From a virus: a stretch of DNA of 58,196 nucleotides. Position numbers and translations under genes: made by a program. Positions within the stretch are counted from its first letter, which is position 1. Each line of letters opens with the position of its first letter. The notes beneath the pieces were generated by a model. That model was given only the letters and a program-made list of their open reading frames with translations, was not told the DNA's origin and made no database searches. Below are positions 2,984 to 28,600 of the stretch, piece by piece. The stretch spans positions 1-58,196 of the IMG/VR virus record IMGVR_UViG_3300007276_000055; one strand, written 5' to 3'.

Positions 2984-2988
2984 TTTTG
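2981..2988 (+). promoter_or_regulatory. -7 box TAGTTTTG before the neck gene block
   Basis: TAGTTTTG fits TAnnTTTG and ends four bases before the ATG at 2993, overlapping the stop codon of the upstream gene. The short distance predicts a leaderless mRNA for the first neck gene. I see no exact TTTG 19-21 bases upstream, so support is partial. Confidence 0.45.
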
Positions 2989-2992
2989 TAGT

Positions 2993-4479: not shown

Positions 4480-5331
4480 ATGGATAACGGACAATTCATA
4501 TCATATAAGTCAGTACTAGAACGTCTTCACATGATCCTTAAGATGGATTTCGAACTTGTCCATGCGGATGCGATCGAGATTATCGGTGGGCTCATGCGTC
4601 GTTTAAAGGTACCTTACGCTTTAGAAGATAAGGTTGAAAAGATCTCTATCGAACAGGGCCGTGGTTTTATACCGTGTGATATGGAAGGTATTATCCAATG
4701 TGCATGGATGGGGACCACAAACGGGACTACCTTAGGTAATGTTCCTTCTGTCGTCTTTACCGAAAATGAAGTAGTTGTTGATGAAGATACAGATTACGAC
4801 TGGTCGTTTAATTCTAAAATGATTGTAGAGTATTCGAATACTAATAGTGTGCAATTGTATCCTATGAGGTACTCTCATGATTCTATGCATATGCGATTTC
4901 ATTGCTGTGACTTTGATTTTGACCCATCTTGTAGTATTACTTACCAGATACAGAATGGTACTATATTTACCAACCAAGAAGAAGGATGTGTAGTTATGGC
5001 TTATCGGGCTATTCCTACAGACGAAGATGGGTTCCCAATGCTACCAGACGCTGATGCGTGGATTCTAGCATGTACGTACGAGCTGGCCTTCCACATCTGT
5101 CTTGGACTTCGAAGTGTGAATAAAATAGACGACAACTTTTTAGACCGTATGGATAACCTACGTGTGAAATATATTCGTCAAGCAGCTAACTGGGTACGCG
5201 CCCATCCTACAAAAGATCAATTGGAGGCTTCTACAAATGAAATGACACGTTTCATTAAGAAAAGGTCTCACCATGATAATTTCTTCTCGAATTTCCAAGC
5301 ACCGGAAAGAGAGTACCAATTCCAGAGATAA
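4480..5331 (+). CDS. Probable neck/ring virion protein
   Basis: This 283-residue protein has an N-terminal helical part (residues 1-60), a central beta-rich domain with many aromatic and acidic residues (around Y-D-W-S-F-N-S-K-M-I) and a long C-terminal helix (about 195-245) that includes A-Y-R...A-N-W-V-R-A-H-P. The organisation is like adaptor and ring proteins of short-tailed phages. It sits directly before the muzzle-type gene and shares its TAATG junction with it. Specific family membership is not certain. Confidence 0.6.
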   Translation: MDNGQFISYKSVLERLHMILKMDFELVHADAIEIIGGLMRRLKVPYALEDKVEKISIEQGRGFIPCDMEGIIQCAWMGTTNGTTLGNVPSVVFTENEVVVDEDTDYDWSFNSKMIVEYSNTNSVQLYPMRYSHDSMHMRFHCCDFDFDPSCSITYQIQNGTIFTNQEEGCVVMAYRAIPTDEDGFPMLPDADAWILACTYELAFHICLGLRSVNKIDDNFLDRMDNLRVKYIRQAANWVRAHPTKDQLEASTNEMTRFIKKRSHHDNFFSNFQAPEREYQFQR

Positions 5332-9730: not shown

Positions 9731-11941
9731 ATGGCTCAGAAAAAGTACCGTTACCTTAAATTTGGAGATTTCCTTAAAGAAATAGGCACTACCGCACTTC
9801 CTATTGTAGGTGCAGCTTTAGGAGGCCCAGCAGGCGCCGTAGCAGGTAAAGCCGCAGGAACAGCTGTTGAAGCTGCTACAGTCAAACCCAAGCAAGGTCG
9901 TCTTGACCGTATTGATGCGCGTAACAAACGTTTAGATGCAAAATCTGAAGCTACTACTGAAGCTATTGGTGATGTAGGTAGCGATTTACTAGGCGCAGGA
10001 GTGAATCTAGCTACAGCTGGTAGTGCTGAAGAACGTAAAAAAGCAGGAATGGGAGCCCTTAAATCTGTAGCCAAAACAGGTCTAGGATTGTTGATGGAAG
10101 ACGGTGGACAACTTACTGAGTATGAAGCCGGTGGTACTCACGATGAAAATCCAAGGGGAGGAATTCCGATTGAAGCATACGGAGCAAAAGTCGAAGAAGG
10201 TGAAACTAAAACTAGTGCACATGATTATGTGTTCTCCGACAAGCTGCGCATGCCTGGAGACCTAGTAGAAGAGTTTGGCCTTAACCCAAAATTTAATGAC
10301 CTCACATTCGCTGAGGCTTCGAAGAAAATAAATAAGCGCCACAACAAGGTGGAGCGTGAAGGTGATAGACTAAGCCAAGAGGCTGAAGCTAAAGACCTGG
10401 AACAACTTATGAACTCTCAAGAAGCGTTCAAGGTTATGAAAGACATTGAAGACTTCGACCAAGCAATGGCTTTAGGAGGATTTATCAAGATGGAAACCGG
10501 TGGTTACATGATGATGGAAGAAGGGGGAGACTCTACTAAAGCTGCTAACAAACAAGCTGCCGAAGCTTACTTAAAAGAATTCTGGAGACTTAACGATCAA
10601 TATAAACCTGATTCTGTAGTTCTTGAAGAAGCGCTTATTGAGAGGCTAGCGTCAGGTGATTCTCTTATAGATGCTGGAGTAAGTCAACCTACCATGGAAG
10701 CTTTATCTAGTTACATGCAAGATTATCCTGAGCAGATACCTCAAGGAATGAAGGATACCTTCCTATCAAGTTTTGCTTCACCAGAAGGTAAAGACGCCGG
10801 AGTAAAACAAAAAGCTTCTGCCGAGTCTAATACTACTCCTGCTTTAATAGACGAAGATGGTGACGGTGTTTCTGATCTTATACAACGACCTAAAAATACT
10901 GAAATATCTGACGGTAGTTTAATCGCAGATCCAGCATCTAGTCGTATCCGGAATCAAATGAAACGTTTAACGGATCCGTTATACAATATTAATAACCCTG
11001 ATAGGGTACCGATAGCAGAACCTATGGAAGATGCAGAGCCTACAGCCGTATCGTCAAATCCAAAGTCTAAAACTAGTTCTGGAGACCTTCGAGATAAAGA
11101 AGCCGCTCAGGATTTAAAAGGTGGTACACCTCGTATACAAGCTCCTGTCGGAGACTTTATGATAGACGCTGAAGGTAACACAGTGTTTCCTGAAGACCTT
11201 GAAAATTTCTCAACCCCTGCTAATTCTAACGCTACTAGTGACGTTGACCTTACTGGAGGTGCACAAGAGTTTACCGGTAAAGGGCCTAACTTTGGTGAAG
11301 ACGGTAAAGGGCCTAACCTTGGTGAAGGTGATGAGGAAGAAGAGGATAAGGATAAAAAGAAGAAAATAAACCCAGCTGCAGTAGGAGCTAATGTTTTACG
11401 ATTCGCGCCGTTAGTAGGCTCTATAGCTAACTTGAATAACCTTAAAAACAATAAGCCTACTCCTAAAGCTGAAAACATGTTTGACGTCGACACAGACTTT
11501 GAGGCTAACTTGGTAAACCGAGATCAATACAAAAGGGATATCGAACAAGAATCCGCTTCAGCAAGAGCAGCTATCGGAAATGCTTCTGGCGGATCCAGAG
11601 CTACAGTGCTTTCGAATCTAGCCGGGGCTAATGAAAGAGCTATGAATGCTTTAGGTGCTACAGATGTGCAAGCAGACATGGTGGACCAGCGAGAACTAGC
11701 TCGAGTAGACCAGATAACTAATCGAAGTAACATGTTCAATAGTTCTATGAAAGAACGTGTGACAAACATGAATGACGCTGATGCTGGAACGTGGCAAGGG
11801 CTACTGCTGGATAATGTTAGCAACTTGACTAATAATGCAGGACAAGTAGGTACCGACTTAAGCCGCGAATCAGATGTTATGCAATTTTTGAAGAACAATG
11901 AAATTGACCCTGACAATTTTGAATCAATTTTAAAAGACTAA
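9731..11941 (+). CDS. Internal virion (cargo) protein
   Basis: This 736-residue protein starts with a Gly/Ala-rich hydrophobic segment (residues 14-45, P-I-V-G-A-A-L-G-G-P-A-G) that could insert into membranes. It then has a G-G-T-H-D-E-N-P-R-G-G-I-P motif followed by E-E-G-E-T and Y-V-F-S-D (about 136-173), a pattern I associate with internal proteins of crAss-like phages. The middle is acidic and low in complexity, and the C-terminus is Ala/Asn-rich and helical. It is expected to be packed in the capsid and ejected with the DNA. The stop overlaps the next ATG (TAATG). Confidence 0.65.
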   Translation: MAQKKYRYLKFGDFLKEIGTTALPIVGAALGGPAGAVAGKAAGTAVEAATVKPKQGRLDRIDARNKRLDAKSEATTEAIGDVGSDLLGAGVNLATAGSAEERKKAGMGALKSVAKTGLGLLMEDGGQLTEYEAGGTHDENPRGGIPIEAYGAKVEEGETKTSAHDYVFSDKLRMPGDLVEEFGLNPKFNDLTFAEASKKINKRHNKVEREGDRLSQEAEAKDLEQLMNSQEAFKVMKDIEDFDQAMALGGFIKMETGGYMMMEEGGDSTKAANKQAAEAYLKEFWRLNDQYKPDSVVLEEALIERLASGDSLIDAGVSQPTMEALSSYMQDYPEQIPQGMKDTFLSSFASPEGKDAGVKQKASAESNTTPALIDEDGDGVSDLIQRPKNTEISDGSLIADPASSRIRNQMKRLTDPLYNINNPDRVPIAEPMEDAEPTAVSSNPKSKTSSGDLRDKEAAQDLKGGTPRIQAPVGDFMIDAEGNTVFPEDLENFSTPANSNATSDVDLTGGAQEFTGKGPNFGEDGKGPNLGEGDEEEEDKDKKKKINPAAVGANVLRFAPLVGSIANLNNLKNNKPTPKAENMFDVDTDFEANLVNRDQYKRDIEQESASARAAIGNASGGSRATVLSNLAGANERAMNALGATDVQADMVDQRELARVDQITNRSNMFNSSMKERVTNMNDADAGTWQGLLLDNVSNLTNNAGQVGTDLSRESDVMQFLKNNEIDPDNFESILKD

Positions 11942-13848
11942 TGGCAGCAAATAGATTTACCAAACAGCGAGTACAACCTGAATTTATTGCGGAGCCTTTG
12001 CAAGACAAACTGGCTCTTCCTCTTTTAGACATGAAACGTAAAGAAGAGACTATGGGAGCTCTATCGGACTTAACGTTCGGTGTAGAGGCTACCGAGCAAG
12101 ACATGAAGAATGGTGTCGCTCAAGATATTGAGGCTTTCAAAAAAGCTCGAGAAGAAGCTACTGGTGCTTTAATGCGTGGAAACACTTCACAAGGTGTGGC
12201 TAAGTTACAGCAGATTCGCCGCGAATGGGACGGTTACATGAACAATCCTAGCGGTCGTGGGTACCAGGCACAAAGATTCTATCAAGCTAAAGTTGCCGGA
12301 GATAAAGAGTATAAGACCATGGGTAAAGATCATTCAGGAAAAGATATTACTCGAGGATTACAGAGCGCAGTTAAAGGCTGGCAAGAAGCTGGTACTTATG
12401 GCGCTATTGTCACAGACGAAGAAGGTAAAGCTACTGGAGACTTTAGGGATTTCGCAGATCAAGCTGTACTGCCTCCTAAGTACTACAATGTAGAGAAAGA
12501 AGTTCAAAATTCGTTTAGAGCTTTGGGGCACACTAAGACTCAAGGGTTTATGGATGCCATGAATAATGGGGACATCAGTCTAGTCAATGTAGAAGGCGTA
12601 CCTATGTTTAAAATGACTGGAAGAACAAGTACGCAGTCTAACAAAAATCAGGTAGACCAACGTACTGTATCAATTATGAATGAGTGGCTGAATGGTCCTA
12701 AAGCTGAGTCAGCTGAATTCATGCAGTATACTCCAGAAAAGCTTCAAGAAATTATTCGACAGGTAGGCAACTCAGCTTTGAAATTCGAACAAACTGTGGA
12801 CCCTAATCGGTACCAACAAGTTCGAGGACTTGGCGGGAGCGGTGCAGGCGGTGGCGCAGATAAGACTGCAATGACCCAAGCTTTACACAGTGTAGCTGAA
12901 CAACTTCCTGGTGTAAAAGAAATTAGAGCACCTGGTTCCAGGGACGGTTACACAGGATCAATACCTACATACGGTATCGGTATGCCTTACGAAGCAGTAG
13001 GTTCAACAGCAATGCAAAAAACCGATTTAAAGGCTTACGAACAAGAGGTTAAAGAATTTACTGCTCTTAAAAATCTCTATGAGTTTGAAGGTTCGGATAA
13101 AGAATTCGCTGAAGCATGGAACTTTGTAAACAAAGACAAGCAAAGTTTATTCCGACTAACATTATCTATGGGTGTAGCACCTACTGAAGCTGTTCGTACG
13201 GAACTACACAACATATCAAACAGCGCTACATACTTGGTACCTGGAGCCAGCTCCCCGCTAAACCTAGGCCAATTAAAGAAACATATGCTAGGTGTTGAAC
13301 TTGATGAAGATTTAACTCCGGAGCAGGAACAAGAATTTGAAGGTATGTGGGCAGCTCGTAAAGCTGAAGGATACCGTCCTACACAAGGAGGATTTGCTCT
13401 TGGGTTAGGTAACAAAAGTGTAGTGCAGTTAAATGAAGAGATTAGTCAACATCACCCGCTATCCCAACTAATCGGGGAAGCGGTACTTCCAAAAAATCCG
13501 GATACTAAAGAACGGGTAAAAAGTATTGACTTAGGTTATAGAGACGAGTCTGGAAACCCACAACCTATTAAAGTAACTCCTAGGATAATACCTCGAGACG
13601 GTGGGGGATACAAATTAGTTACTGATATAGACATGCCGGCTAAAATGAGAAGTGATATAATGTCATATCTTACAAGTTCTGGACAAGCTAGGGTTCCTAA
13701 AAATGAAGCTGAGTATAAAGAACTAATAACATTAGCAGAAAACCCTCAAACTATTGCACGTTGGGAAAATAGTAGGTATCTTCGTTCAAGATACACTTCA
13801 GATTTGAATAAGGAAACGTCGAGTAAGAACGACATTGATTATTACTAA
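11941..13848 (+). CDS. Internal virion (cargo) protein
   Basis: A 635-residue, largely helical and charged protein with no catalytic motif. It follows the first cargo gene with overlapping stop and start codons and precedes the polymerase gene by five bases. A Gly-rich turn (G-G-S-G-A-G-G-G) occurs near residue 298. The position and composition fit an ejection or scaffold protein packed with the polymerase. Identification is by context only. Confidence 0.55.
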   Translation: MAANRFTKQRVQPEFIAEPLQDKLALPLLDMKRKEETMGALSDLTFGVEATEQDMKNGVAQDIEAFKKAREEATGALMRGNTSQGVAKLQQIRREWDGYMNNPSGRGYQAQRFYQAKVAGDKEYKTMGKDHSGKDITRGLQSAVKGWQEAGTYGAIVTDEEGKATGDFRDFADQAVLPPKYYNVEKEVQNSFRALGHTKTQGFMDAMNNGDISLVNVEGVPMFKMTGRTSTQSNKNQVDQRTVSIMNEWLNGPKAESAEFMQYTPEKLQEIIRQVGNSALKFEQTVDPNRYQQVRGLGGSGAGGGADKTAMTQALHSVAEQLPGVKEIRAPGSRDGYTGSIPTYGIGMPYEAVGSTAMQKTDLKAYEQEVKEFTALKNLYEFEGSDKEFAEAWNFVNKDKQSLFRLTLSMGVAPTEAVRTELHNISNSATYLVPGASSPLNLGQLKKHMLGVELDEDLTPEQEQEFEGMWAARKAEGYRPTQGGFALGLGNKSVVQLNEEISQHHPLSQLIGEAVLPKNPDTKERVKSIDLGYRDESGNPQPIKVTPRIIPRDGGGYKLVTDIDMPAKMRSDIMSYLTSSGQARVPKNEAEYKELITLAENPQTIARWENSRYLRSRYTSDLNKETSSKNDIDYY

Positions 13849-13853
13849 AAGCG

Positions 13854-16800
13854 ATGGGTAAACAAAAACGGGACTATAGCGACCCTACTTACGAAGAATT
13901 TCTATCCGCGGTAAATGAGGATCCTCAAAACCTTGAGCCGCCTACTACTTTAGATGGCGTAGAAGTGGAGCCTTTTATTCCACCTCAATCAGAGGAAGAG
14001 TTTAACGCACTTGTAGAAGAAGTTAAAGCTTCTGACAACATTGGAAATAATTTTTCAGGTAGCGCAGATTTATCTGGTGGACGATTCGGAATCGGAGATA
14101 CTAACCTAGATGACGATGGTGTTAGTCTATACCAGGTCCCACACTTAGAAGACCTTCGAGCACAAAGCCAAGGAGGTATGCGCCTATTAGGTAACGCTCT
14201 AACTAACTTTGGAATTGAAGCAGCTGCTGGTGTACTAAACTTCGCCGGTACCATTATGGACTTCGAACAAATGGGTGACCTGATCAACGGCACTGAAATG
14301 GAGTTCTCAAACTTTTTTACTGATGCTGTTAACGGGGCCAAAGATAGTCTTGTTCAGGATGATGGAGCTATGTTTAAGATCTATCAGACTAAAGCAGCTC
14401 AGCAAGGTTTTGCTCCTACCGATTCCACTTGGTGGGCAAAAGGAGCAGGCACTTTTGGTACTTCAGTAGGTCTGATGGCCCCAGCATTGGCTGTAGGGTT
14501 TCTATCTGGTGGAGCTCTCGGAGCAGTTGGTGGGGCAGTAGCCGGTGCCACAGTCTCACGGTATGTAGAGAATACCATGGAAGCTTTTGAAGTTACAGAC
14601 CGTCTATACAAAGATTTTATTCGTGAAGGTATGCCTGAAGAGCAGGCTCGAGAAAAAGCTGGAGCTCAAGGACGTAAAGTATGGATAGCTAACTCTGCAA
14701 TGCTTCCTATCGATATAGCCCAGTTTATTATGTCGGCCGGTACTATGAAGGCTGCTAGTAAAATGGGCTTAGGTATGGCTAAAGCTATCGGTAAAGATGC
14801 CGCAACACAAATACCTCAAGAAGCTTTTGAAGAATTTTACCAACACGTAACTGCTGAAGAAGCGGTAAGTGAAGGTTTAGGTAAGAGTGGTTTCTACGAT
14901 CAAGGATTTACTTATCGATTAGGAGATTACGTACGTGATGAACAAGCTTGGAATGCAGCTTTCTGGGGAGGTGTAGGAGGGGGAGTCTTCTCTGCAGCTA
15001 GTCCTATGATCCAAAAGAAAATGGAAAAGACTGCATTATACAACGGTCTGTTAAATCAGTTTCGTCAAAAGGGAGATGCAGTACAGTTTGAAAAGACTAG
15101 TGCTACCATGGCCTACTCTACCGCTTTACAAGATCTAGAGAATACCGGTAGTTTAGATAAGAGTATTAGTACGCTTGATGCTATTGCTCAAGACGATAAA
15201 CTAGAGCCTGAAGCTCGAGACCGTGTAACGTCACTCCGTACAGACTTAGAAGAAATTAATAAAGAGATTCCTGCGTGGCAAGACCAAGGTTATTCGAAAG
15301 CAGAGATTGCGAATCTTTCTAAGCTATCCATGGAACGTCGTGGTATCCAGCGTGCACGTAAGCAGCTTGATTCTGAAATCAGTGATCTCGAGAGTTCAAT
15401 GATTGAAAACGATGCTATGACTCCAGGGGCCCTTGAAGTAAAGTCCGCTCAGACTAAAGCTGAAGCCTTATCTGAATTACAAAGATTCCTTACTCTCAAA
15501 GAACGTAACCAAGCGGCCCAAGAGCAGCAGATGGTTACCGACGGGAAGAGTCCTGCAGAAATTGCTGCGTTTCAAGAAACTCGCAAGCATACTAAGACCA
15601 TTTTAGGTCAGCTTAAAAAAGATGTCCCAGCTGCTGCTAAAGCTGCTGAAGAGGCAAAAGCTGCTTTTATAGAGTCTGAAGAATTTAATAATGACGTCGA
15701 TACTCTAGAGGGTCAGACTTTAAGTACCATAGAGAATAAGTACTTCGAAGCTATAAGTAGACGTCAACAAGAGGACTATGCTTTAGGTCGCGTCAATCGT
15801 GATTTAAAAAAAGCCGGTACTCGTAGTTCTAAAAAAGCTACTGATCAACAAGCTGAGACAGAGAAAAAGAAAACTGAAGACGCAGTTAAGCAAGCGGCTA
15901 AAGATGAAAGCTCTATCGAGGAAATCAACAAACTCTTTAAACGTAATGACCCTATTACGTACACTGATGAAGAGGGGAACGAGGTCAAAGGTACTTTTCA
16001 AGGTACTAGCCAAAGTGGCGTAGCTGTAAAAGGAGAAGACGGGGTTACCCGTCCAATAGCCAAAGACAAGTTTAGTCAAGCTATTGAAGAAAAACAAGCT
16101 TCTTTAGAAGGTACTACTGAGGATATTAATAAAACGGCTAGAGAAAAAACAAATGAATCTCCTGGTGGATGGGGAGCAGGCACTGTTGAAGAAACTGCTG
16201 CACCTAGTTCAGAAGCTAAAGGAGGCTGGGGAGAAGGTACCACAGAAGGTGCTACTAAACCAGAAGCAGATCCTACTACTGAACCTGAAGTAGGCGTTGA
16301 CAATAAAGTCGTTGATGAAGCTCATCGAGGGCCCGGGGAAGTATCGACTACTCCAGAAAATAAATCTATTGCTAGTGAGAAAAAGCGTCCTACTACAATT
16401 GCTTGGATCTCTGCCAACAATCCAAAGTACAGTGGAGAGCAGCATGATGCCGATAATAAAGCCACTACTGAATTCTTCGAAGCAGATAATACTACTGAAG
16501 GTCTCGAGGCTCGCGTAGTAATTAGCAATGAGATACAAGATTGGGATACTCAAGACTCCCCTTTAGATGTTGACGATGTAGATATTCAGCTTAACGTTTT
16601 AGACGATCAGGGTAACGAAATTAAGATTAACGACGGCCAAGTACGAGGATGGGTACACAAAACTAATTTCGAAGGGTACAAAACTGAAGCCCAGAAGAAA
16701 CAAATAAGAACTATACGTCAAAACATGATTGACGCTGTTCGTGCGGGAAATGAAGTACGAGTTAAACTAGGCCCTAAGAAAGGAGGACAAATCTGGTATT

Positions 16801-19800
16801 CATCAGAAGTCAATACTCTTGAAGACATCTTTAAGAAATCCTATGAGGATATCAATGTTTATGTAGTAGACAATACTGGGCAGTTGATGCCTGGTAACCC
16901 GACTGTTACAGCAATGCCTGATCACACCGGTAAGATAGCTGTAGTCTTCGAAGGATATGATGGCCAGCTTATTGCAGCTACTGGTGGTACCGCTAAGTAT
17001 ACTCCAGCACTTGCTGACGCCGCTATGATAGTATTACGTAACGCTACTAATTATTTAGGTAAATCGACTATCACTCCAAAGTTGGCTAAGTACCTAAGAG
17101 AGCACGAGTCTACTGAAGTTTCTGATGTCGGCACAATCTTTAATCTAGATCCTACTAAAGGAGATCTTCCTACACTCAACGAGTTATTAAACTTTTTCGT
17201 TGTGGAAGGTAGCCGGACAGAAGGCAACAAGAATGCTTTAAAAGCAAAAAAAGGAGAAGGTGTCACATACGTTTCGAATGGAAAAACTCGCTTAATCGAT
17301 AATAAGTCTACTCCCGAAGAGACTCAAATGTTTAAAGAGCATTTACTAAGCCTCGGCTTTCCAGTACAAGCTCAGCATGTACAGACTCCTGCAGGCCGTA
17401 AATGGTATTACCAACACGGGATTTACAACTTTAAATTAAAGCCTACAGCTAAAGGAGTTCCTATACACACACCTACAATACATTTCTCGGAAAATATTGA
17501 GGCCATAGCTCCTAAAGAAAAAGCGACTCAAACTTCGAAAGCGTCTTCTATGGACAGCCGTATGGATGAGGTTAAGGCTGTCAGCCAAACTTTCTCTTTG
17601 TCTAAAGATGAGAAGAAGTACACTCGAGTAGTTGATGGTAAAACGTTAACATACGAGCGCGTTACTCAGTTTTACAAAGGCGAATCTACTGAGAAGACTC
17701 CGAAACCTGTCATGATTTCAGGAGGTATCATCGGTGATAAGAATGACGAAATCTGGAGAGCTTTCTTCAATGGTGAGATTAAAACTGCTGAAGACATTCG
17801 TAAATATAAGTTCCAGAAGAAAAGTATTAAAGGGCAGAAGTTTGGTAAGAATCTTACAGACGCCCAGCTTGAGACCTTCTTAAATAGGCTCAAAGCTCTC
17901 CAAACTGATTTTGAAAAACAAGGGATGAAAGTCCTAGCTACTGATGTGGTAGTGTTCGATGACGTCGAGATGGTAGCAGGTACCGTAGATTTACTTCTTT
18001 ACAATGATAAAGGGGATGTATGGATCTACGACATGAAGGCCATGAAGGGTAACAAATTTACTGAGCATTACGGCAAAGATCCTAACACTAAATATAATGC
18101 TACGTTCGATGGCGGGATGTCTGATAAAGAGGCACACTCGAATCAGCTGTCTGCCTACAGAGCACTTCTACACAACGCGTACGGGATGACCGCTAGTAAG
18201 TTAGCCATTCTTCCTACAGTAGTTTCTTACAACCCTGGAGACACGGATATTAACTTCAGTGACGTATTCGGTACTGACGAGCAAGAAATTAGATTCGAAG
18301 TTCTGAATCCTTACCCGGTAGCTATTAAAGACAAAGTTGTGCACCATGCAGATTCCGATCGAGTCTTAACTATCCGCAAAGGAAAAGTTACTAAAGACGT
18401 GACCAAGAAATCTGCAGACGATATCATGGACGGCCTTCTAGGAGATGGGTATAGTTCTACATTAGACGATTCTATTTCTAAAGAACGTCAGATGGACACT
18501 CAGACGCTGGATACTATCTTACCTTACTCTACTCGTAGAGTATCTACCATGGAAGAAACCATTACTGGTCTACTTACTTTAGGGGATGCAGATGTAATGA
18601 CTGACATGTATGCTATGCAGAAAGCCGCTGCTTTTGGTGGCTCTACGTTCATGCAAGAGTTCGGATCCAAAGTAAAAGTAATTGTCCGATCAGGTCGAGA
18701 GATGAGTGCACGTCCTTCAATGGCGGGTAAAGACGCTTCAAGAACTATCGGTATTTACGAACCAGAAACGAACCAAGTAGTTATGAATAAGGACCTCATT
18801 CCTTACGCGACTCCTAACATGCTAGCACGTACTTTACTTCACGAGTTTGGCCACGCTGGTACAATCCACGTAATGCATATTTACGAAACCGATCGTACTT
18901 TACTAAGCGGCTTAGCACAAGACTATGTATCTACATTTTATGAGATGTATGATAACTTACAACTTACTGATTCCGAAAAAGCAAAGACACATGCTTTAAA
19001 AAGTCCTCAAGAATTTGTGGCTGAGTTTTTTGGTAATCAAAAATTCCGTCAATGGTCTGTTGAAAGATTAGTAGCCAATAATGAAAAAGCTACTGGAAAC
19101 ATTTTACGACGTTTATTCACTTTCTTCAAAGAGCTATTTCGATTCGGGTTTAAAGCGGCTATTAAAGCGCAACGTCCTGTTACTGCAGACCAGTTAATGG
19201 GAGAATTTGACGAAGCTTTCTCTGCTTCGATTAATGATATTCGAGTAGCTGCTAGAGGACTTGGCGGTTACTATGCTCAGGAAGTACAAGAACCCGGTGA
19301 AGCGACTCCGTCAGAATTAGACGCGCAAGAAACAAACGAAGTCTTAGACTTTATGCAGCTTGTATTCTTTACCCAGCTTCAAGGAGCCAAAAGCTCTGTT
19401 GTAAACCTTTCTTTAGACTTTGGCCAAGTGCGAGAAAAATTAGCCACTCTATCTGAAGAAGCAGAAGCTCCTATTGCGAACGTATTTAAAAGAGCAGTTC
19501 TCCCAGAGAACTATGCGATTTTAGTAGGTCGCTTAAATGATAGACTACGTCAAGCAGGTATCGTGATCAACGAAGAGGCGGAAAGCTCCATGAAAGAAAT
19601 GGGAGAGTACGACAAAGCTTCTTTCACGATCAACCGTAAACAGAATGCGAATCTTGATGTAAAACTTATGGTAGCCAGTCTTCCAGAGATGGATGCAAAA
19701 GTTGATTCAGAGGGTAACTACACTTATACAGCAGCCAAAGGAGAACTTCTCGGTCTTGGTAAGCTGGCTCCTGCAAACGCTACTTGGTATGCAATACAGC

Positions 19801-22800
19801 ATCTGTTAAAGAACCTGACTATTACTGAAGGCAACTCTGACGTGTATTCAACTATGCGTGAAAAGATCCGCCAGTTTACTCCATTCTATCCGAGTTTAGC
19901 GGTGCTAGGAAACTGGTTAGACAATGCTCCAGAGTATCGTCGAACACAGTTCATGAAAGCTTTTAACCTCCAAGAGATTACATTTATCTTGTACCAATTT
20001 AACGGTTATGGTAAAGACCTATCTGTTCGTCGAATGGATACTACTTCTGTAAGTAAGCGTAACAATTTACTTGAGATGTGGAAGAATGGCTTTACTACAG
20101 CTTTCTTCCAAACGAATGAAAAGAATGAGGTCAAACTAACTTCGAATGCTAAGATAGCGGTAGAGAGATTCAACGAACTCGCCAAAGAGACCTCTAGATT
20201 ACGTAAAGGAGGCAAGCTCCCTAAGGAACACTTGGCCGATTGGGCAACTTTCTTAAAAGACTCTGGTATAGGTATAGATCCTCGAACGCTCGAGTATGGT
20301 GCTACACTTCGAAATGAGTCTAATCCAGCCGATGGTTTACAGCAGCTTATTAATACCACTTTCCGGTACGTATTTGCAAAAAGTAATTACGGTAATCCGC
20401 TAGCTAAGCTGGTTAACGAAGGAGTAAGCGTTGATGAAAATGGGGACATTCCTAACCCTATCAAGCATGCTGATTCTGAATCAAGTCTTAAATCTTTAGT
20501 CGAACTCGAGATGATGTTCCGACCTCAAATGAATGAATCTACTGTATTAGGTGCTGATGGTGATAGTTACTGGGTTTTCCAAACCTATGACTACACGAAC
20601 CTATTGATCGATGAGTTAAAAGCTAATCCTAAAATGGTGGACTCTTTACTTCAGATACCTTACCATAAGCATAGTTCTATTTTAAAACTGATGCAGAAAT
20701 ATGGTACAGACATCATCAAGGTAGACACCTGGAACAACGCGCGTCGTATGAACGCTGCTGATAAAGGTACCAAGTATTCTCGTCTAGAGCGGCCAGATGA
20801 CCTCCTGTTAAAAATGTGGGGATACACTAAAGGTGTGCTTCCTTACATCAACCAAGCGGATAAGTCTCGCCACTATGAGATTTCTCTAGACTTCAAAAAA
20901 ATTAAAGAGCGTAATGGCGGCAAAGAAGTTATTTTACTTCCAGAAACGGCTATGCGTAAAGACGGTACTTGGGCTTTAGGGCGATCGGTTCCGTTAATGG
21001 CTTCATTGTTCTTAAACGAACTTAATGCTTCTCGTCTTGCTTGGGAACAAGTATTCGGAGATAACAAACTCCCGGACAACGAGCTTATTGAAGATTATCA
21101 CTTTGTCAGAGATGAATCTGGGAACATGGTTAAAACTTTACCCAACGGCCTTCCCACTGGTTCTGTATTTTATTCGGATATTTTCCCGGAACTTTCTCCT
21201 GGCACAGGGCTAGCTGTAAGCTTAGACCTATATGATAGTAATGGTCGACCTAACGTAGCCAACAGCGAAGAGTACTACGCAGGTACTACAGGTGGTGGTA
21301 GTAAATTAATCCCGTCTTTCCAAAAAGCTTTCGAACCTTTAGTTCTAGCTAAGATCCTTCGTGAGAAAAACCGACTGCTACAAATAGCCGAAGACGATGG
21401 CCTTATCGAAAAAACGGATAGTGGTTATGACAATCTTATTATCCCGGAAGAGCTTATAACAGAGTCTGGTACTTTAGAGAATCTGTTCATGACAGTGGCT
21501 GCAAGATCTATTTACGCTAATGCAGAAATCACATCATTGTTTTACGGGGACCGACGAGTCTTCTCTAAAATGAAGAAAGATTCAGACGGAGCTTACATGC
21601 AGGGAGTATTCTCATCTAGCCTTTCAAAAAGGGTTACTGGAGCTACTGCTGTTAAAGGGCGCCTTAGAATCGATGGTAAGCGAGTACGTAAAACGTATAA
21701 GGCTGCTGTCATTGCTGACATGATAACTTTCTCGGATAAACTACTCTCTGAAGAACACTTGAGAGAAGTGGCCAAAGCTACTGGAGAAAGCTTCAGCGCT
21801 ATCAAAAGAATTTTCTCGGATCAGGGAAAAACTAAAAACGAACAAACTGGTTCCGGGTACGACAACAACAACGCTGCAGATGCGCAAGCGTGGATTACCC
21901 TAGATAGGGCAAAAGAAATTTTTGAAGGGGAAGGTCTCTGGGACGACCAGATGGAGGACGCTTACGAGTCACTTAAAGCAGGAAAGCTAAAGCAAAGTGA
22001 TGTAAAGCTTTTTAGCAAAGCTGTTAATTTAGCGCCTCAAAAGGGAGCTTACTTTGCGCCGATGGTTATTAACAACCAACGTGTGTCAGTCATGGACAAG
22101 TATTCTCAAGCTATTTTGTATCCGGGATTGACTAAAGGCACTGGACTAGACGGTTTGCGTTTAGCCATGGAAAGAAAAGTAGACGGCCAAAACGCAGTCG
22201 ATGAGGTCATCACTCGTTCTGGTTCTAAAGGAGCAGTACAAAAAGTAGCTACTATATTCGATAGCGACGGTAACATGTTAGACCAAGCAACGATCGAAAA
22301 AGAACTATTCACTACTGACCGGGAAAATAAGCATTGGGGACGTCAGGTAGAAATGAGTCCTAAAGCACTTAACGATAACACCTTAGTTAATACTCAGGTA
22401 CGTAAAAACGTATTCGCTAATGTCGATCGGGAGTACGTATATGAATCTGGCCGTAAAGGCGGAGAAATCTTAGCGGAAAAAAATGCGGTAATTTCTGAAC
22501 TAAGTAATAGAGGTTTAGCAGAAGTTTCTGCTTTATATGGTACAGACCCTGATGGCCGGTTTAGTGAACCAGCTATTCGTAAAGTGATGCGCGATGAGAT
22601 GGTAGCGAACAACGCTCCTCAAGACCTTATTGATTCACTTGATGGTACTACTAACTTAAACGCACTTCCTCAGGATCGAAAAACACTTTGGTATCGAATT
22701 GCTGCAGGAGTAGTAAAAAACACAGTTAAGCTTAAGCAACTTGGTGGAGGGTTTATCCAAATGTCCATAGCTGGTATTTCAGATACTACTGAAGCAGGTG

Positions 22801-25661
22801 TTGTGGATCTTTCGTACTTGAAGGATTTAAAGAAGCTTAAGGAAATGCGTCGTAACATTATTTGGTTGAAAGACCGTAAGGACTTAGATCCGCCGATGAT
22901 TAAAGACGGAAAACTTATCCCGGGACAGATTCTTCTTCCATACAAGTTCCTTAACCTAGTAGGCGGGGATGTTTCGAAGATTGATAAAAAGCTTCTTAAC
23001 ATGATCGGTTACCGTATTCCTAACCAAGGAGACGCCTCTACTGATTTACTTGAAGTAGTAGGATTCCTTCCAGAAGAGTATGGTGATACAGTAATTGCTT
23101 ATGCAGAGATTACCGAAAAAACTGGTAGTGACTTCGATATTGATAAAATGTACATCATGGCCCCTAATTTCACGATGACTGAAGAAGGCTTAATCAAGAC
23201 TCCTTACAATGAAGGAACATCTAAAGATGATGTTAAAGCACGTTACGAGATCTATTCAAAAACATTGGCAACTAAGCATGCCCTCTACGCAGAACTTGAC
23301 AAAGTAGATTTTTGGAATCACCGTTCAAACTTAGTGCTAGACGCGGTTAAAGAAATCCTGAACGCCAAGTTTGCTAAGAATGACAATGCGTTAGCCTTTA
23401 TAGCTATGATTGATAGTACGGAGTACGAAAACTCCAGTATCCTAGACTCCATCAAGTCTTCGAATAACGTAGATATCTTATCGTTTGAGGAGTTCGCTAA
23501 GCTTCCGGTTACTGAACAGATTACTACTGAAGCTCTTCAAAACAGGTTTATGGATATCATGACAGAAGTTCTTTCGGAACCTTCTGGGTACATAAACATG
23601 ATGACTCCATTGGAGTACCGTACCGCGGCTATTAAGAAAGACCTTAATCAAGTGCTAGAGGAATCCAATAGTACTCGAGATATTGATGCTTATGGTTTAT
23701 CAGGACAGATTGATTCCAAGTATGCGTTTGCTGGAGGTAAAGCACAGCTTGGTGAGGTGATGAATTTCCTTCAGGACCACAGTGTGCGCCGTGAGGTAGG
23801 CCGTTTTATCAAAGCCGGACTCATAGACCTTAAAGCTGTAGAAACTCGTTTAGATGGGCGCTATGATGAAAACGGAGTGCCGTTGATGCAGATCTTTTCT
23901 GCGTACGCCTCGCTTCACGTAGATATTGCGACAGATCCTATCATTATCCGTGCAAACTGGTCTCAAGATACTACTAAAGTAGGATTGCTTATGCTGGCTG
24001 CTGGGTTACCTTATTCAAAAGTCGATCGGATTTTAAATCAACCTATTATACGAGAGTACACTAAAAATAAACGACGCTTACGTGCAAAGTCTACTACACC
24101 TATCAAAAACAGTAACGGTAAGAAACTAAGTGCTTTTGAAGTAGCTGCTTTGAAATTTAATGAAGGTCAGAATATTAACGAAAAAGATTTACCAGTAACT
24201 GCTCCTAGTATGTTGACTAACAAAGTTTTAACGAGCCAGTTACAGTCAACAGGTAATGAACAGTTAGGTATCTTAGGTTTATACAAATTGTATGAAGACA
24301 ACGCTAAAGAACTTACTCGAGGTATCCAAAATTCGAAGGTCGACAGCTCGCCGCCTAAACACCTTGTTGACGCATATGTTAAAGCGGACGTACGAGAAAA
24401 GATACAGCAGCATGATACTATAGGTAACTGGGATCAAACTTTTGACCAAACTTTCTTAGGTACTATGTGGAAAAACTCTGTAACTACCCTCATTAACGGC
24501 TTACAGGACATAGCTATTGAAGGTACCCCAGCATTCCAAACAGCTATGAAAGAGTTCATGCATATGTCTGGACAAGATGTTTCAGTAGATGCGGTAGAGC
24601 AGTTCATGGAAGAGCTGTATGGAGCGTTCGCTTCAGGTTCTTCATTAAGCTTAACCGACGCGGAGTTTCAACGAATTTTTATAGGCAGCCAATCAGTGGC
24701 CCATAAAACTGTGGAGTATCAACAACCAGGCAGTCCGCTATACGGAAACGTATTTATTCAGTATCTGAATCCGAGTATTAAAACCGGAGATCACCCATCG
24801 ATAGTCACAATTGATAACAACAATCAAATTTCAAATGACGTTATCAACAATTTAAGAAACCAGTGGGTACAGCTTTATCGCCACGAAGATCCAGCTATTC
24901 GCGCTTATGCTTCTGACTTAGCTAAAGCGGCTTACCACACAAGTAATTTCAGGTATTCTACAAGAAGTATGTTGAAGTTACTGCCGGATCCTATCCTTCA
25001 AGACTTAGGGTATACAAAGTATGTAGAGGAGGCTATATCTGGGAAGTTACAGGAAAGTAATTACTTATTGCCTATGATTAACCAAGTCTATAAGCACTTG
25101 TCAGACAACTCATCTTTGGTTCCTTTTGTTCCGTTTAAAGATATGCAGACAGTTCCAGTAGCTAACGAGTATAAAGACTATTTTCACAAAAGTCGCGTAG
25201 CATTAGTCGATGTCGAGAATAACCCAAAACTGGTTATTAAAAGCGATGGGAAAGATTTACTGCCTAACATGAAGCCCTTTATCTCCACCAAACTAAAAAC
25301 AGGTAGTGAAGAGCAAGGGAATCGACGTCAAATAGATGCTACCATGATGTTCGTCGGTGTAACCAACAGTAAAGGCCGACAAAAAGCAATTTATGTTCGC
25401 ACAAATACTCTAGGGTACTTCTCGGAAGGGAAGCGAGTAACAGAGTACAGCTTCTTCGAGTCCGGTAAGACTTCGAAGTTCTCTAAGAATAATGTACTTT
25501 TGTCTAAGGAGCAAAGAGGACTTATAGGGCAGTTCCTTAAGGAGAGTGCTGAAATAGCTAGTAGAGTCCAAGAAGATATGACTTTCTCAGCAGAACGTAG
25601 AGCACTGTCCCCGGAAAACGAAGAGAATCAAAAAATCAGTAAATTCTGTAGCACATCATGA
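13854..25661 (+). CDS. Giant virion RNA polymerase fused to nuclease-like and zincin-like domains
   Basis: This 3935-residue protein is one uninterrupted frame. In order I see: a charged N-terminus with a Gly/Ala-rich hydrophobic region (about 199-238) suited to membrane passage; a long helical part; an acidic linker near 760-820 with two G-G-W-G repeats; a PD-(D/E)XK nuclease-like core (G-T-V-D at Asp1379, then Y-D-M-K with Asp1393 and Lys1395); a zincin-like H-E-F-G-H (1663-1667); and a large C-terminal region with S-D-F-D-I-D-K (D-x-D-x-D at 3093-3097), the metal-binding signature of the crAss-like/YonO/QDE-1 class of RNA polymerase. Known crAss-like polymerases are virion-packaged and transcribe early genes after injection; the phi14:2 enzyme is about 2180 residues, so this one is much longer. 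Cleavage by its own or the neighbouring zincin-like domain is possible but not shown. Confidence 0.85.
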   Translation: MGKQKRDYSDPTYEEFLSAVNEDPQNLEPPTTLDGVEVEPFIPPQSEEEFNALVEEVKASDNIGNNFSGSADLSGGRFGIGDTNLDDDGVSLYQVPHLEDLRAQSQGGMRLLGNALTNFGIEAAAGVLNFAGTIMDFEQMGDLINGTEMEFSNFFTDAVNGAKDSLVQDDGAMFKIYQTKAAQQGFAPTDSTWWAKGAGTFGTSVGLMAPALAVGFLSGGALGAVGGAVAGATVSRYVENTMEAFEVTDRLYKDFIREGMPEEQAREKAGAQGRKVWIANSAMLPIDIAQFIMSAGTMKAASKMGLGMAKAIGKDAATQIPQEAFEEFYQHVTAEEAVSEGLGKSGFYDQGFTYRLGDYVRDEQAWNAAFWGGVGGGVFSAASPMIQKKMEKTALYNGLLNQFRQKGDAVQFEKTSATMAYSTALQDLENTGSLDKSISTLDAIAQDDKLEPEARDRVTSLRTDLEEINKEIPAWQDQGYSKAEIANLSKLSMERRGIQRARKQLDSEISDLESSMIENDAMTPGALEVKSAQTKAEALSELQRFLTLKERNQAAQEQQMVTDGKSPAEIAAFQETRKHTKTILGQLKKDVPAAAKAAEEAKAAFIESEEFNNDVDTLEGQTLSTIENKYFEAISRRQQEDYALGRVNRDLKKAGTRSSKKATDQQAETEKKKTEDAVKQAAKDESSIEEINKLFKRNDPITYTDEEGNEVKGTFQGTSQSGVAVKGEDGVTRPIAKDKFSQAIEEKQASLEGTTEDINKTAREKTNESPGGWGAGTVEETAAPSSEAKGGWGEGTTEGATKPEADPTTEPEVGVDNKVVDEAHRGPGEVSTTPENKSIASEKKRPTTIAWISANNPKYSGEQHDADNKATTEFFEADNTTEGLEARVVISNEIQDWDTQDSPLDVDDVDIQLNVLDDQGNEIKINDGQVRGWVHKTNFEGYKTEAQKKQIRTIRQNMIDAVRAGNEVRVKLGPKKGGQIWYSSEVNTLEDIFKKSYEDINVYVVDNTGQLMPGNPTVTAMPDHTGKIAVVFEGYDGQLIAATGGTAKYTPALADAAMIVLRNATNYLGKSTITPKLAKYLREHESTEVSDVGTIFNLDPTKGDLPTLNELLNFFVVEGSRTEGNKNALKAKKGEGVTYVSNGKTRLIDNKSTPEETQMFKEHLLSLGFPVQAQHVQTPAGRKWYYQHGIYNFKLKPTAKGVPIHTPTIHFSENIEAIAPKEKATQTSKASSMDSRMDEVKAVSQTFSLSKDEKKYTRVVDGKTLTYERVTQFYKGESTEKTPKPVMISGGIIGDKNDEIWRAFFNGEIKTAEDIRKYKFQKKSIKGQKFGKNLTDAQLETFLNRLKALQTDFEKQGMKVLATDVVVFDDVEMVAGTVDLLLYNDKGDVWIYDMKAMKGNKFTEHYGKDPNTKYNATFDGGMSDKEAHSNQLSAYRALLHNAYGMTASKLAILPTVVSYNPGDTDINFSDVFGTDEQEIRFEVLNPYPVAIKDKVVHHADSDRVLTIRKGKVTKDVTKKSADDIMDGLLGDGYSSTLDDSISKERQMDTQTLDTILPYSTRRVSTMEETITGLLTLGDADVMTDMYAMQKAAAFGGSTFMQEFGSKVKVIVRSGREMSARPSMAGKDASRTIGIYEPETNQVVMNKDLIPYATPNMLARTLLHEFGHAGTIHVMHIYETDRTLLSGLAQDYVSTFYEMYDNLQLTDSEKAKTHALKSPQEFVAEFFGNQKFRQWSVERLVANNEKATGNILRRLFTFFKELFRFGFKAAIKAQRPVTADQLMGEFDEAFSASINDIRVAARGLGGYYAQEVQEPGEATPSELDAQETNEVLDFMQLVFFTQLQGAKSSVVNLSLDFGQVREKLATLSEEAEAPIANVFKRAVLPENYAILVGRLNDRLRQAGIVINEEAESSMKEMGEYDKASFTINRKQNANLDVKLMVASLPEMDAKVDSEGNYTYTAAKGELLGLGKLAPANATWYAIQHLLKNLTITEGNSDVYSTMREKIRQFTPFYPSLAVLGNWLDNAPEYRRTQFMKAFNLQEITFILYQFNGYGKDLSVRRMDTTSVSKRNNLLEMWKNGFTTAFFQTNEKNEVKLTSNAKIAVERFNELAKETSRLRKGGKLPKEHLADWATFLKDSGIGIDPRTLEYGATLRNESNPADGLQQLINTTFRYVFAKSNYGNPLAKLVNEGVSVDENGDIPNPIKHADSESSLKSLVELEMMFRPQMNESTVLGADGDSYWVFQTYDYTNLLIDELKANPKMVDSLLQIPYHKHSSILKLMQKYGTDIIKVDTWNNARRMNAADKGTKYSRLERPDDLLLKMWGYTKGVLPYINQADKSRHYEISLDFKKIKERNGGKEVILLPETAMRKDGTWALGRSVPLMASLFLNELNASRLAWEQVFGDNKLPDNELIEDYHFVRDESGNMVKTLPNGLPTGSVFYSDIFPELSPGTGLAVSLDLYDSNGRPNVANSEEYYAGTTGGGSKLIPSFQKAFEPLVLAKILREKNRLLQIAEDDGLIEKTDSGYDNLIIPEELITESGTLENLFMTVAARSIYANAEITSLFYGDRRVFSKMKKDSDGAYMQGVFSSSLSKRVTGATAVKGRLRIDGKRVRKTYKAAVIADMITFSDKLLSEEHLREVAKATGESFSAIKRIFSDQGKTKNEQTGSGYDNNNAADAQAWITLDRAKEIFEGEGLWDDQMEDAYESLKAGKLKQSDVKLFSKAVNLAPQKGAYFAPMVINNQRVSVMDKYSQAILYPGLTKGTGLDGLRLAMERKVDGQNAVDEVITRSGSKGAVQKVATIFDSDGNMLDQATIEKELFTTDRENKHWGRQVEMSPKALNDNTLVNTQVRKNVFANVDREYVYESGRKGGEILAEKNAVISELSNRGLAEVSALYGTDPDGRFSEPAIRKVMRDEMVANNAPQDLIDSLDGTTNLNALPQDRKTLWYRIAAGVVKNTVKLKQLGGGFIQMSIAGISDTTEAGVVDLSYLKDLKKLKEMRRNIIWLKDRKDLDPPMIKDGKLIPGQILLPYKFLNLVGGDVSKIDKKLLNMIGYRIPNQGDASTDLLEVVGFLPEEYGDTVIAYAEITEKTGSDFDIDKMYIMAPNFTMTEEGLIKTPYNEGTSKDDVKARYEIYSKTLATKHALYAELDKVDFWNHRSNLVLDAVKEILNAKFAKNDNALAFIAMIDSTEYENSSILDSIKSSNNVDILSFEEFAKLPVTEQITTEALQNRFMDIMTEVLSEPSGYINMMTPLEYRTAAIKKDLNQVLEESNSTRDIDAYGLSGQIDSKYAFAGGKAQLGEVMNFLQDHSVRREVGRFIKAGLIDLKAVETRLDGRYDENGVPLMQIFSAYASLHVDIATDPIIIRANWSQDTTKVGLLMLAAGLPYSKVDRILNQPIIREYTKNKRRLRAKSTTPIKNSNGKKLSAFEVAALKFNEGQNINEKDLPVTAPSMLTNKVLTSQLQSTGNEQLGILGLYKLYEDNAKELTRGIQNSKVDSSPPKHLVDAYVKADVREKIQQHDTIGNWDQTFDQTFLGTMWKNSVTTLINGLQDIAIEGTPAFQTAMKEFMHMSGQDVSVDAVEQFMEELYGAFASGSSLSLTDAEFQRIFIGSQSVAHKTVEYQQPGSPLYGNVFIQYLNPSIKTGDHPSIVTIDNNNQISNDVINNLRNQWVQLYRHEDPAIRAYASDLAKAAYHTSNFRYSTRSMLKLLPDPILQDLGYTKYVEEAISGKLQESNYLLPMINQVYKHLSDNSSLVPFVPFKDMQTVPVANEYKDYFHKSRVALVDVENNPKLVIKSDGKDLLPNMKPFISTKLKTGSEEQGNRRQIDATMMFVGVTNSKGRQKAIYVRTNTLGYFSEGKRVTEYSFFESGKTSKFSKNNVLLSKEQRGLIGQFLKESAEIASRVQEDMTFSAERRALSPENEENQKISKFCSTS

Positions 25662-28600
25662 TATGTCCTAATGTAAACAGCCAGGAATGGCAGCACCTTG
25701 TAACTGCGGTAGGCGAAGATCTCGCTTATTATTTATGGGACGCCAATAACGGTAACCCAATGTCTATGACTCCGCAAGGAGAATTATCGCCATTGTACGA
25801 CCAAATGCTGGACTATACTAACGGTAATGCTTTCGCTGCGTCAAAGCTTAAAGCGAGTGCTTACGATATCGCTTACCTACAAAGTAATGAGTGGCGTAAG
25901 GGTGCTGAGCCTAAGCTCGAAGTTAAAAGTAATGGCTCTTTGTACTTAGTACAGGATGTCGAAGGAGTTCCGTTTTACTACCGTATTAAGGCCCCAAGAA
26001 CTACTACTAGTTTAAACTTCAATGATGCTGCTTCTATGGATGCGTATAAAGCTCCAGAGAACGAAGAAGACTTCAACACGAAGCTTGATATGATGCAAAA
26101 AAACTTCGCAGCATTTGACATAGACTTACAATTCGAAGGAGTGAATCCATCGATCGTGGCCATTAACGGCCGGATTCAACTTAACATGCCTTATCCTAAC
26201 ATATTAGCAGGGAAAGACAGTTTACTTCACGAGCATGGCCACATTTTAATCGAAGCTTTAGGTGGTATGAAAGATGACCACATAGCATTCGCTAGGCGTC
26301 AACTTGCAGGTACCAAGCTTGAAGAAGAGGTTACCAAAATGTATCGTAGCCTAGATCAGGAATCTCTGGACAAAGAAATTATAGCACAAGCGGTAGGTAT
26401 GAAGGCCGCGGAGCTTTTTGATGACTTAATGAAGCAGCGTAAATGGAAAGCTTGGCTTAAAGTTTACTTAAATCGATTGAAAGCTACACTAGGACTTAAT
26501 CATGACGCAGTCATGGAACTAAGTCGCAAACTTCTTTTAGACGAATTAGCCTACACTGAGACCGACTTCCAAGCGGATGATAAGGTTTTAGGTACGCCAT
26601 TCGAGCAACGTCAAACTGTTGAGGGGGTCCTAGAGAATTTAATGGAACGAGTGCAGAGTTTGTATGCCCACTGGCAGCGTTTTAAAAACACAGACGCTAT
26701 TGAACGTATGGGTCAGATGATTGAAGACATGGTAAACTTTAATGACATTCGATCGGCTATCGTGTACACCCAGAATGCAGAGCGAACTACGCTTAGGATC
26801 GAAAAAGACTTTGAAGAAATAGAAGCTAAACTCAAAGCTGGGGGATACATTACGGACGCAGAGTTTGAAAAACTTAGCCACCACCTCAAAAACATGCAAC
26901 AGTTTGCTGGAGCTTTTAACTTGATTCCGGAAATTCAAGAATTGTTAGAAGCAGGTGAAATAGAATTCGGTAAGAAAGACTTAGTAGAGCTCGACTTTAA
27001 AGCCCCGGTAAAGACTTTAGGAGCAGTAGATGCCCGTCTCAAAAAGCTAGACAGGATGTACCAACGTATAATTCAAGAGTACACGGTCCAGCGCCACTAT
27101 AAGGATATTGACATTGTGGAAAAAAACTGGGGACGAAAATTCGAAAAAGAATACCACAAGCTCTACCGTAGCGCTGATCGTAAACGTCTAGGTAAAGAGG
27201 AGTACGATCGACGTAAACTAGCATTCATTAAGGAAAAGCTGGGAGAGAACCAGGCGACTATTGATGCCGAGTCTCAACAGTATTTACGTAATATGCTAGA
27301 TAGACATATTGGATACGTTAGTGACATATCTTCACTTACAGAATGGGCCTCGGATCCAAAATCCATTACTGATTCGGTTATGCAGATAGCCATAAAAATC
27401 ATGGATAGAATCGATGAGGAAGTGCGCTTCGAGTTTCAACAAGCACTTAGAGAACCTGTGGAAGCTTTTCAAAAATTTACAGCAGAACGAGGTAATCCTT
27501 TAAATCAGGAGGAGTTGTACAAAGGATTGTACGAAGAAATCGACGGAGAAAAAACCGGATTTTACAACGGTAAGTTCCTAAGCTCCTTCTTGACTAATAA
27601 AAACGTATTGTGGAATGCTTATGCGGAAGCTAAAGAAGTAGATCCAAACGGTCCTAAAGAATTAGAAGCAAAAGCTGCATTCGAAGAGTGGAAGCTTGAG
27701 AACGAAGAACAACCTTATACAGCTGAGTTCTTAAAAAGGGTAACTGAGAATCGTGAACAATTTGTTCGTACAGAGGAGTATGTAAGGCTGAGTAAAGAAC
27801 AGGCTAAAATCAGAAAGCGCTACATAATTAATGGAAGTTTCGCTTATGATAGACTCACTCCCGTAGACAAAGAAGCTTGGGACGCTAATGAAGCTGCACT
27901 TAAAGTAGAGCGGGAAGTTACTAAAGCGGAGAATAAAACAGTACAAGAGGAATTTTTCAAGCTGTGGAAGTTTGTAGAAACTGCTCGTTACGAAAAAGTA
28001 AAGGACGAAAAACTTTTAGAAGGTACTGAGGCATACAACGAATGGTATGTGGCTAATCATGATAAAGGTAAGGCTAAGCCCGCCTGGACTAAACTAGTGC
28101 CAAAAAGTGATGCTAACAATAATCCGAATTATCGGGAACATTATACGACTCCGAAGTCGCAATGGTTAAACCCAGCTTGGGGGAACATGAAACAAATGAT
28201 GGAGAACGAAAACAGTTCTGCGGGACAAATGTTGAAGTTCTTAAAAGAGAATGCTAATCGTGTGGATAAGGAATACGCGGGGAAAAGTCATCGTCGTAAG
28301 TATCTTACAAACGATGCTATGGACGACCTGATAGGGATTCCGAAAGCGGAAAAACAGACTATCGAAAGGATAGCTGAGTCAGGCGTGCGTGCGGTATTTT
28401 GGGAAGGGTTAAAAGACAAACTGCAAAAAAGATCTACAGACACAGATCTAGAGATGGAAACTATGGATAACCCCGAGTGGGAAAAGTTCGTTAAAGTAGT
28501 TGTTGATGAGAATCACAAAGTAAAGCGATTCATTCCTATCTACTTCCGAAACAGTCTAGCTAATAAAGCTGACCAATCTTATGACTTACTTTCACTAGAA

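Follow-up and report, generated by a model that had tools for sequence, protein, structure and literature searches.

GENES AND DOMAINS AT THE LOCUS

The stretch of DNA analyzed here (the window) is a linear record of a virus, 58,196 bases long, and probably represents a fragment of a genome. Positions 13854 to 25661 of its plus strand form one ATG-started open reading frame that encodes 3,935 amino acids with no internal stop, as the initial annotation had described it. The motif positions that it gave for the chain are also exact: Asp1379 (in DLLLY), Asp1393-Met-Lys1395, HEFGH at residues 1663 to 1667, and DFDID at residues 3093 to 3097. The features of this frame and its neighbors are listed below, with the evidence for each in parentheses.

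5331..9713 (+): virion structural protein of 1,460 aa at the stabilization-protein position (phrog_28748, E=2.5e-111)
9731..11941 (+): 736-aa protein without cysteine at the crass cargo protein 1 position (presumed cargo, from position)
11941..13848 (+): 635-aa protein without cysteine at the crass cargo protein 2 position (presumed cargo, from position)
13854..25661 (+): giant chain, gp67-type half plus gp66-type virion RNA polymerase (ORF calls; homology to 6VR4 and gp67)
14157..15002 (+): conserved N-terminal domain, residues ~102 to 383, also present in the upstream gene of phages with two separate genes, phi14:2 gp67 among them (iterative profile)
15774..16463 (+): linker, residues ~641 to 870, of low hydrophobicity and probably disordered
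17697..18239 (+): predicted PD-(D/E)XK nuclease domain, RecB/Cas4-like, residues 1282 to 1462, with D1379, D1393, K1395, Q1431, and Y1435 (profile, alignment, model)
18732..19061 (+): predicted zincin-type domain, residues 1627 to 1736, with H1663, E1664, H1667, and E1720, positioned where split phages have the gp67/gp66 gene boundary (profile, alignment, model)
19620..25658 (+): virion RNA polymerase region, phi14:2 gp66 homologue, residues 1923 to 3935 (6VR4 match, tblastn)
23130..23144 (+): polymerase catalytic motif DFDID, residues 3093 to 3097 (aligned to SDFDID of 6VR4)
25658..30193 (+): next protein, 1,511 aa, positional equivalent of phi14:2 gp65, with one cysteine and HEHGH at residues 191 to 195 (start overlaps the stop of the giant frame)

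The order of these genes (stabilization protein, two cargo-position proteins, giant chain, third protein) is the same in GenBank phages with a fused frame. Elsewhere in the window, a rIIA-like and a rIIB-like gene adjoin on the minus strand (41744 to 45552), and DNA ligase and ribonucleotide reductase genes lie near this pair on the same strand. Searches for a promoter-like pattern and for an integrase yielded nothing informative.

The two halves of the chain are separate genes in phage phi14:2 and in many relatives, as would be expected if a misassembly or a missed stop had joined two genes in this record. Such an artefact is practically inconceivable, and we rule it out, because a second contig (IMGVR_UViG_3300000115_000044) contains the same open reading frame intact, about 50 other genomes, GenBank records among them, have fused frames, and L036, the closest neighbor of the window in the polymerase tree, likewise has a fused frame. 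The two contigs share 22.4 kb at 99.92% identity with no gaps. Within the frame they differ at 7 synonymous and 3 non-synonymous positions (one of the 3 is an ambiguous base), where the neutral expectation is 78% non-synonymous.

In a shuffling test on the giant chain, the motifs HExxH (P 0.03) and DFDxD (P 0.05) were uncommon, but not to a decisive degree, and chance alone should produce a bare D-x(n)-[DE]xK. We accept the three motif sites as real because of homology and conserved residues, not because of the bare motifs.

THE C-TERMINAL HALF IS HOMOLOGOUS TO THE phi14:2 VIRION RNA POLYMERASE

In a PDB search, the giant chain matches 6VR4, the virion RNA polymerase gp66 of phi14:2, with E=1.4e-77 over residues 1923 to 3543. 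This polymerase homology extends over ~1,600 aa, with collinear stretches at residues 1923 to 2275 and 2654 to 3511, and includes the same DFDID motif. A tblastn search of phage records likewise ranks phi14:2 gp66 first (24% identity). The block GYRIPNQG...TGSDFDIDKMY is conserved in 21 aligned relatives and is common to the relatives that we collected (137 distinct cores). The crAss-type RNA polymerase proposed in the initial annotation is thus supported by homology to a solved structure. Two double-psi beta-barrels are predicted for the giant chain by homology to 6VR4 only. When the whole chain was searched against the PDB, 6VR4 was the only match, and no T7-like polymerase was found in Pfam, which rules out an N4-type (T7-like single-subunit) polymerase module.

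In some relatives, the polymerase frame itself is irregular. The frame in L032 (5924 to 13826) is broken by ~950 bases at DFDID, as an intron or another catalytic-site insertion would do. In L121, L122, L134, and L137, the polymerase frames start near 9,430 to 9,460, only ~215 residues before the core match and after a gap of ~480 to 510 bases that follows a long upstream frame; this gap is possibly an intron or a frame break at one shared place.

THE N-TERMINAL HALF CORRESPONDS TO phi14:2 gp67

An iterative profile built on residues 100 to 390 matched 112 domains, among them phi14:2 gp67 at E=7e-76. In phi14:2, the gp67 and gp66 genes touch, and their products have 1,797 and 2,180 aa, or 3,977 residues together. 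phi14:2 and the window share this N-terminal domain and the gene order of gp67, gp66, and gp65; they differ in that gp67 and gp66 are two genes in phi14:2. Since the N-terminal half matches gp67, the C-terminal half matches gp66, and the two are neighbors in phi14:2, we conclude from homology that the window chain is an in-frame join of a gp67-type and a gp66-type gene, read as one piece.

The N-terminal domain has no relative in Pfam or the PDB and corresponds essentially to one uncharacterized PHROG. Residues 390 to 640, 870 to 1250, and 1797 to 1925 have no detectable relative in the collected set except in the near-identical contig. A search of the N-terminal half for transmembrane helices gave one marginal segment (residues 205 to 223), and few relatives show the same at the threshold used; we therefore do not claim a transmembrane helix in this half.

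TWO PREDICTED ENZYME DOMAINS PRECEDE THE POLYMERASE

The nuclease and zincin domains were folded separately, and a joint alignment placed single-domain rows badly. For the nuclease, PHROG_298 (exonuclease) matches residues 1346 to 1453 of the giant chain with E=1.8e-7. In an alignment of 26 divergent sequences, D1379, D1393, K1395, and Q1431 are invariant and Y1435 is nearly so. The AlphaFold2 model of the domain has a mean pLDDT of 77.5, and Foldseek searches with it find AddAB/AdnAB nuclease domains, MGME1, and proteins of the Cas4 family (probability up to 1.00, best E 4.7e-4). These results bear out the PD-(D/E)XK-like core noted earlier and identify the predicted nuclease site as a RecB/Cas4-like PD-(D/E)XK domain with conserved catalytic residues.

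At the HEFGH site, residues H1663, E1664, H1667, and E1720 are invariant in 42 aligned sequences. In the AlphaFold2 model (mean pLDDT 78.4), HEFGH lies in a helix that follows a short sheet, and helices 73 to 93 and 137 to 146 of the model are the HExxH helix and the helix of the distal Glu. The best Foldseek matches are the minigluzincins selecase and jannalysin, with probabilities up to 0.99 but weak E values (0.07 or worse). The zincin reported earlier at residues 1663 to 1667 is therefore upheld with respect to its conserved HExxH and Glu residues in predicted helices, while the match to a known fold is weaker. Based on the alignment and the model, we classify the HEFGH site as a predicted zincin-type domain.

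A profile of this domain matches solved phage ejection proteins, with E=1.8e-7 for gp48 of Pectobacterium phage PhiM1 (8vb2; the HExxH is included in the match), 1e-6 for the internal virion protein 9sfn, 1e-5 for gp10 (23sg), and a marginal 0.086 for the virion RNA polymerase 11fw. Beyond these, the profile touches other zincins at the superfamily level, and comparable superfamily-level links have been described for the N4 polymerase domain by Iyer et al. (PMC5512222). PhiM1 gp48, a tetrameric ejection protein, has a zincin-type HExxH domain like that of the window; it differs in being an ejectosome protein of 1,263 aa that comes from a T7-like podophage and has no polymerase (PMC11440229). 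The domain lies at residues 381 to 491 of 8vb2, and the gp48 structure paper does not refer to it by the words peptidase, protease, or metal site (PMC11440229).

The next protein in the window also carries a zincin-type site, but one of another type (HEHGH). In 27 relatives, the following protein has EExxH in place of HExxH (e.g., L004, 9434 to 13483 on the minus strand; L008, 17827 to 21822; L118, 12905 to 17830), which is a consistent change of the first metal ligand and not random decay. Alignment-guided scans for further zincin or nuclease loci found no sufficiently conserved stretch.

One reading is that the two domains help transcription to begin, for example by clearing DNA-bound proteins or trimming DNA ends; their substrates would then be the entry apparatus or the complex of protein and phage DNA that enters the cell, and not host targets. 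Weak similarities link the zincin to the Pfam SprT-like family (E=5e-4, below the curated cutoff) and the nuclease to AddAB/AdnAB, MGME1, and Cas4-family exonucleases, all of which are enzymes that process nucleic acid ends or DNA-bound proteins. However, superfamily-level similarity does not fix substrates, and in some relatives the domains are located elsewhere or absent, which indicates that neither is essential to the polymerase. We regard this reading as very doubtful.

FUSED CHAINS ARE COMMON AMONG RELATIVES

The initial annotation held that in crAss-like phages such activities are generally carried by shorter or separate proteins. This is contradicted by the GenBank records of the Suoliviridae phages cr1_1, cr4_1, cr118_1, and cr50_1, in which a gp67-type half and a polymerase are on one chain (4,551, 4,491, 4,946, and 4,774 residues, respectively) at the same genome position as in the window. 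Three of these (cr1_1, cr118_1, and cr50_1) also have HExxH at the junction, but of another zincin type (HEAFH), and in cr1_1 and cr4_1 the PDDEXK domain is instead on the following protein. Published accounts of crAss-like phages put the polymerase at sizes reaching about 6,000 residues and assign a PDDEXK domain to the interior of a large transcription protein (PMC10136315, PMC7886860), and polymerase fusions are mentioned for crAss-like and N4-related phages (PMC10770324). The fused chain of the window is a new example of a known crAss-like arrangement, not a new system.

Among 124 classifiable genomes in our sample, 52 are fused and 72 are split. These proportions should not be read as a census, because the sampling leans toward the window's own relatives and a chain counts as fused when it has at least 2,000 residues up to DFDID. 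On the polymerase tree, there were at least 14 switches between the two states. The window ranks 27th in length among 42 complete fused frames, and its nearest relative, L036, has the same zincin type at the same place, although this pairing is only moderately supported. The three-domain chain is not unique: counting the window, ten genomes combine a nuclease-like, a zincin-like, and a polymerase region in a single chain, the regions occur in three different orders, and some of the motifs are degenerate; in L110, the nuclease residues are lost. In L124, L133, L140, L143, and L161, the chain also includes the following (gp65-type) protein or its first domain; these frames have 4,800 to 5,200 residues, with a zincin behind the polymerase.

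THE ZINCIN LIES WHERE SPLIT PHAGES HAVE A GENE BOUNDARY

The position of the zincin raises the possibility that the chain is a self-processing polyprotein, in which the junction zincin cuts the gp67-type half from the polymerase, either in the capsid or after ejection, and the products would equal the separate proteins of phi14:2. Where a fused chain has an intact site (29 chains), HExxH precedes DFDID by 1,292 to 1,523 residues (1,430 in the window). Split polymerases mostly start 1,270 to 1,570 residues before DFDID, which puts the junction zincin where the gene boundary of these phages falls. As a cleavage role predicts, an intact junction site is also commoner in fused genomes (29 of 52) than in split ones (7 of 72; Fisher p=3e-8), and autoprocessing has been suggested by Iyer et al. 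for polyvalent proteins that contain a zincin (PMC5512222).

However, the association is lost when the tree is taken into account (nine supported independent contrasts, median p 0.25, not significant), so that we reject the raw p value as proof of self-cleavage. The junction site is degenerate (HEAFE or WEAFR) in eight fused chains and absent in 15 others, indicating that an intact junction zincin is not obligatory for fusion. Conversely, crAss001 and Dulem virus 41 are split and yet keep an intact zincin. The N4 virion polymerase, which also has an HExxH zincin domain, is packaged unprocessed (PMC5512222) and has been expressed and imaged as a full-length protein (PMC12633501). We therefore consider self-processing unlikely; self-cleavage is disfavored relative to delivery of the whole chain. 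A variant in which the zincin is a conditional maturase, separating the entry half from the polymerase after ejection, with gene splitting as an escape from the need for it, we consider quite improbable. If it were true, gene fission or fusion and protease loss or gain would be alternative solutions to one problem, and an unrelated counterpart would exist in N4-like phages.

CYSTEINE DEPLETION SUGGESTS EJECTION OF THE WHOLE CHAIN

Of the 3,935 residues of the giant chain, only one is a cysteine, and it lies four residues from the C-terminal end. The four presumed cargo proteins together (9731 to 30193, plus strand) have 2 cysteines in 6,817 residues, compared with 1.17% in the minus-strand proteins of the window. 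A survey of cysteine in the cargo block, covering the polymerase chains of 133 relatives, gave a median of 0.08% cysteine for the polymerase chains and 1.48% for opposite-strand frames of the same loci, with the polymerase lower in 42 of 43. N4-type virion polymerases lack cysteine entirely or almost entirely, a trait that has been attributed to their passage through the tail and the oxidizing periplasm (PMC3715699, PMC2784036). By analogy with these injected polymerases, the depletion suggests that the whole giant chain is ejected, and since it spans the nuclease and zincin segments, both are probably ejected with the polymerase.

Virion homologues point the same way. Mass spectrometry places gp47, gp49, and gp50 of crAss001 in the virion; PDDEXK and zincin are on gp47 and the polymerase is on gp50 (PMC10172136). 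crAss001 differs from the window in that these are separate genes, and gp47 is on the opposite strand from gp49 and gp50. Together with the cysteine depletion, these homologues lead us to infer that the giant chain is delivered into the host with the DNA. In phi14:2, gp66 and gp67 are without HExxH, and gp65 has one (HEIMH).

The closest likeness in function is to the N4 polymerase and N4-like polyvalent proteins, which also combine a giant single-chain ejected polymerase with an HExxH domain and little or no cysteine (PMC5512222, PMC12633501, PMC3715699). In N4, however, the polymerase module is T7-like and not two-barrel, the zincin comes after the polymerase and not before it, and the chain is packaged uncleaved. 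The window chain may thus work like the polyvalent virion polymerase of N4, without kinship in the polymerase part. It also fits the description of a polyvalent protein, in which several domains of unrelated activity are on one chain and a zincin serves as a hub domain (PMC5512222).

We think it fairly likely that the chain is a gp66-type virion RNA polymerase, translated in one piece with its gp67-type cargo partner, that is packaged and ejected whole. This reading is supported by the matches of the zincin profile to phage ejection proteins, the crAss001 virion homologues, the packaging of unprocessed N4 polymerase, and the cysteine depletion. The giant chain would be made late and packed in the capsid beside the neighboring cargo proteins. 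It would then be unfolded, ejected whole through the tail ahead of the DNA, and refolded in the cell, where the N-terminal half would have served entry and the C-terminal polymerase would use the incoming genome to transcribe early genes. The nuclease and the zincin would travel with the polymerase as passenger modules, and for the zincin an envelope or host target or a structural role is likelier than an obligatory self-cleaving protease. What is directly observed in this account is the gene join, the homology, the conserved catalytic residues, and the cysteine depletion; packaging, ejection, refolding, and the targets of both passenger enzymes are what we infer.

IMPLICATIONS FOR crAss-LIKE PHAGES

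The fusion itself is already documented in crAss-like phages. A limited search of the crAss-like literature found no report of the zincin position, the cysteine depletion, or the link to ejection proteins, although parts of this may be known. What the comparison adds is a set of questions that can now be tested. One is why the division between entry half and polymerase has shifted or disappeared so often on the polymerase tree, and another is why a zincin-type domain related to those of podophage ejection proteins lies at that very boundary. A third is whether the near-absence of cysteine, seen here in a polymerase family other than that of N4, may be a general mark of ejected proteins that cross the periplasm.
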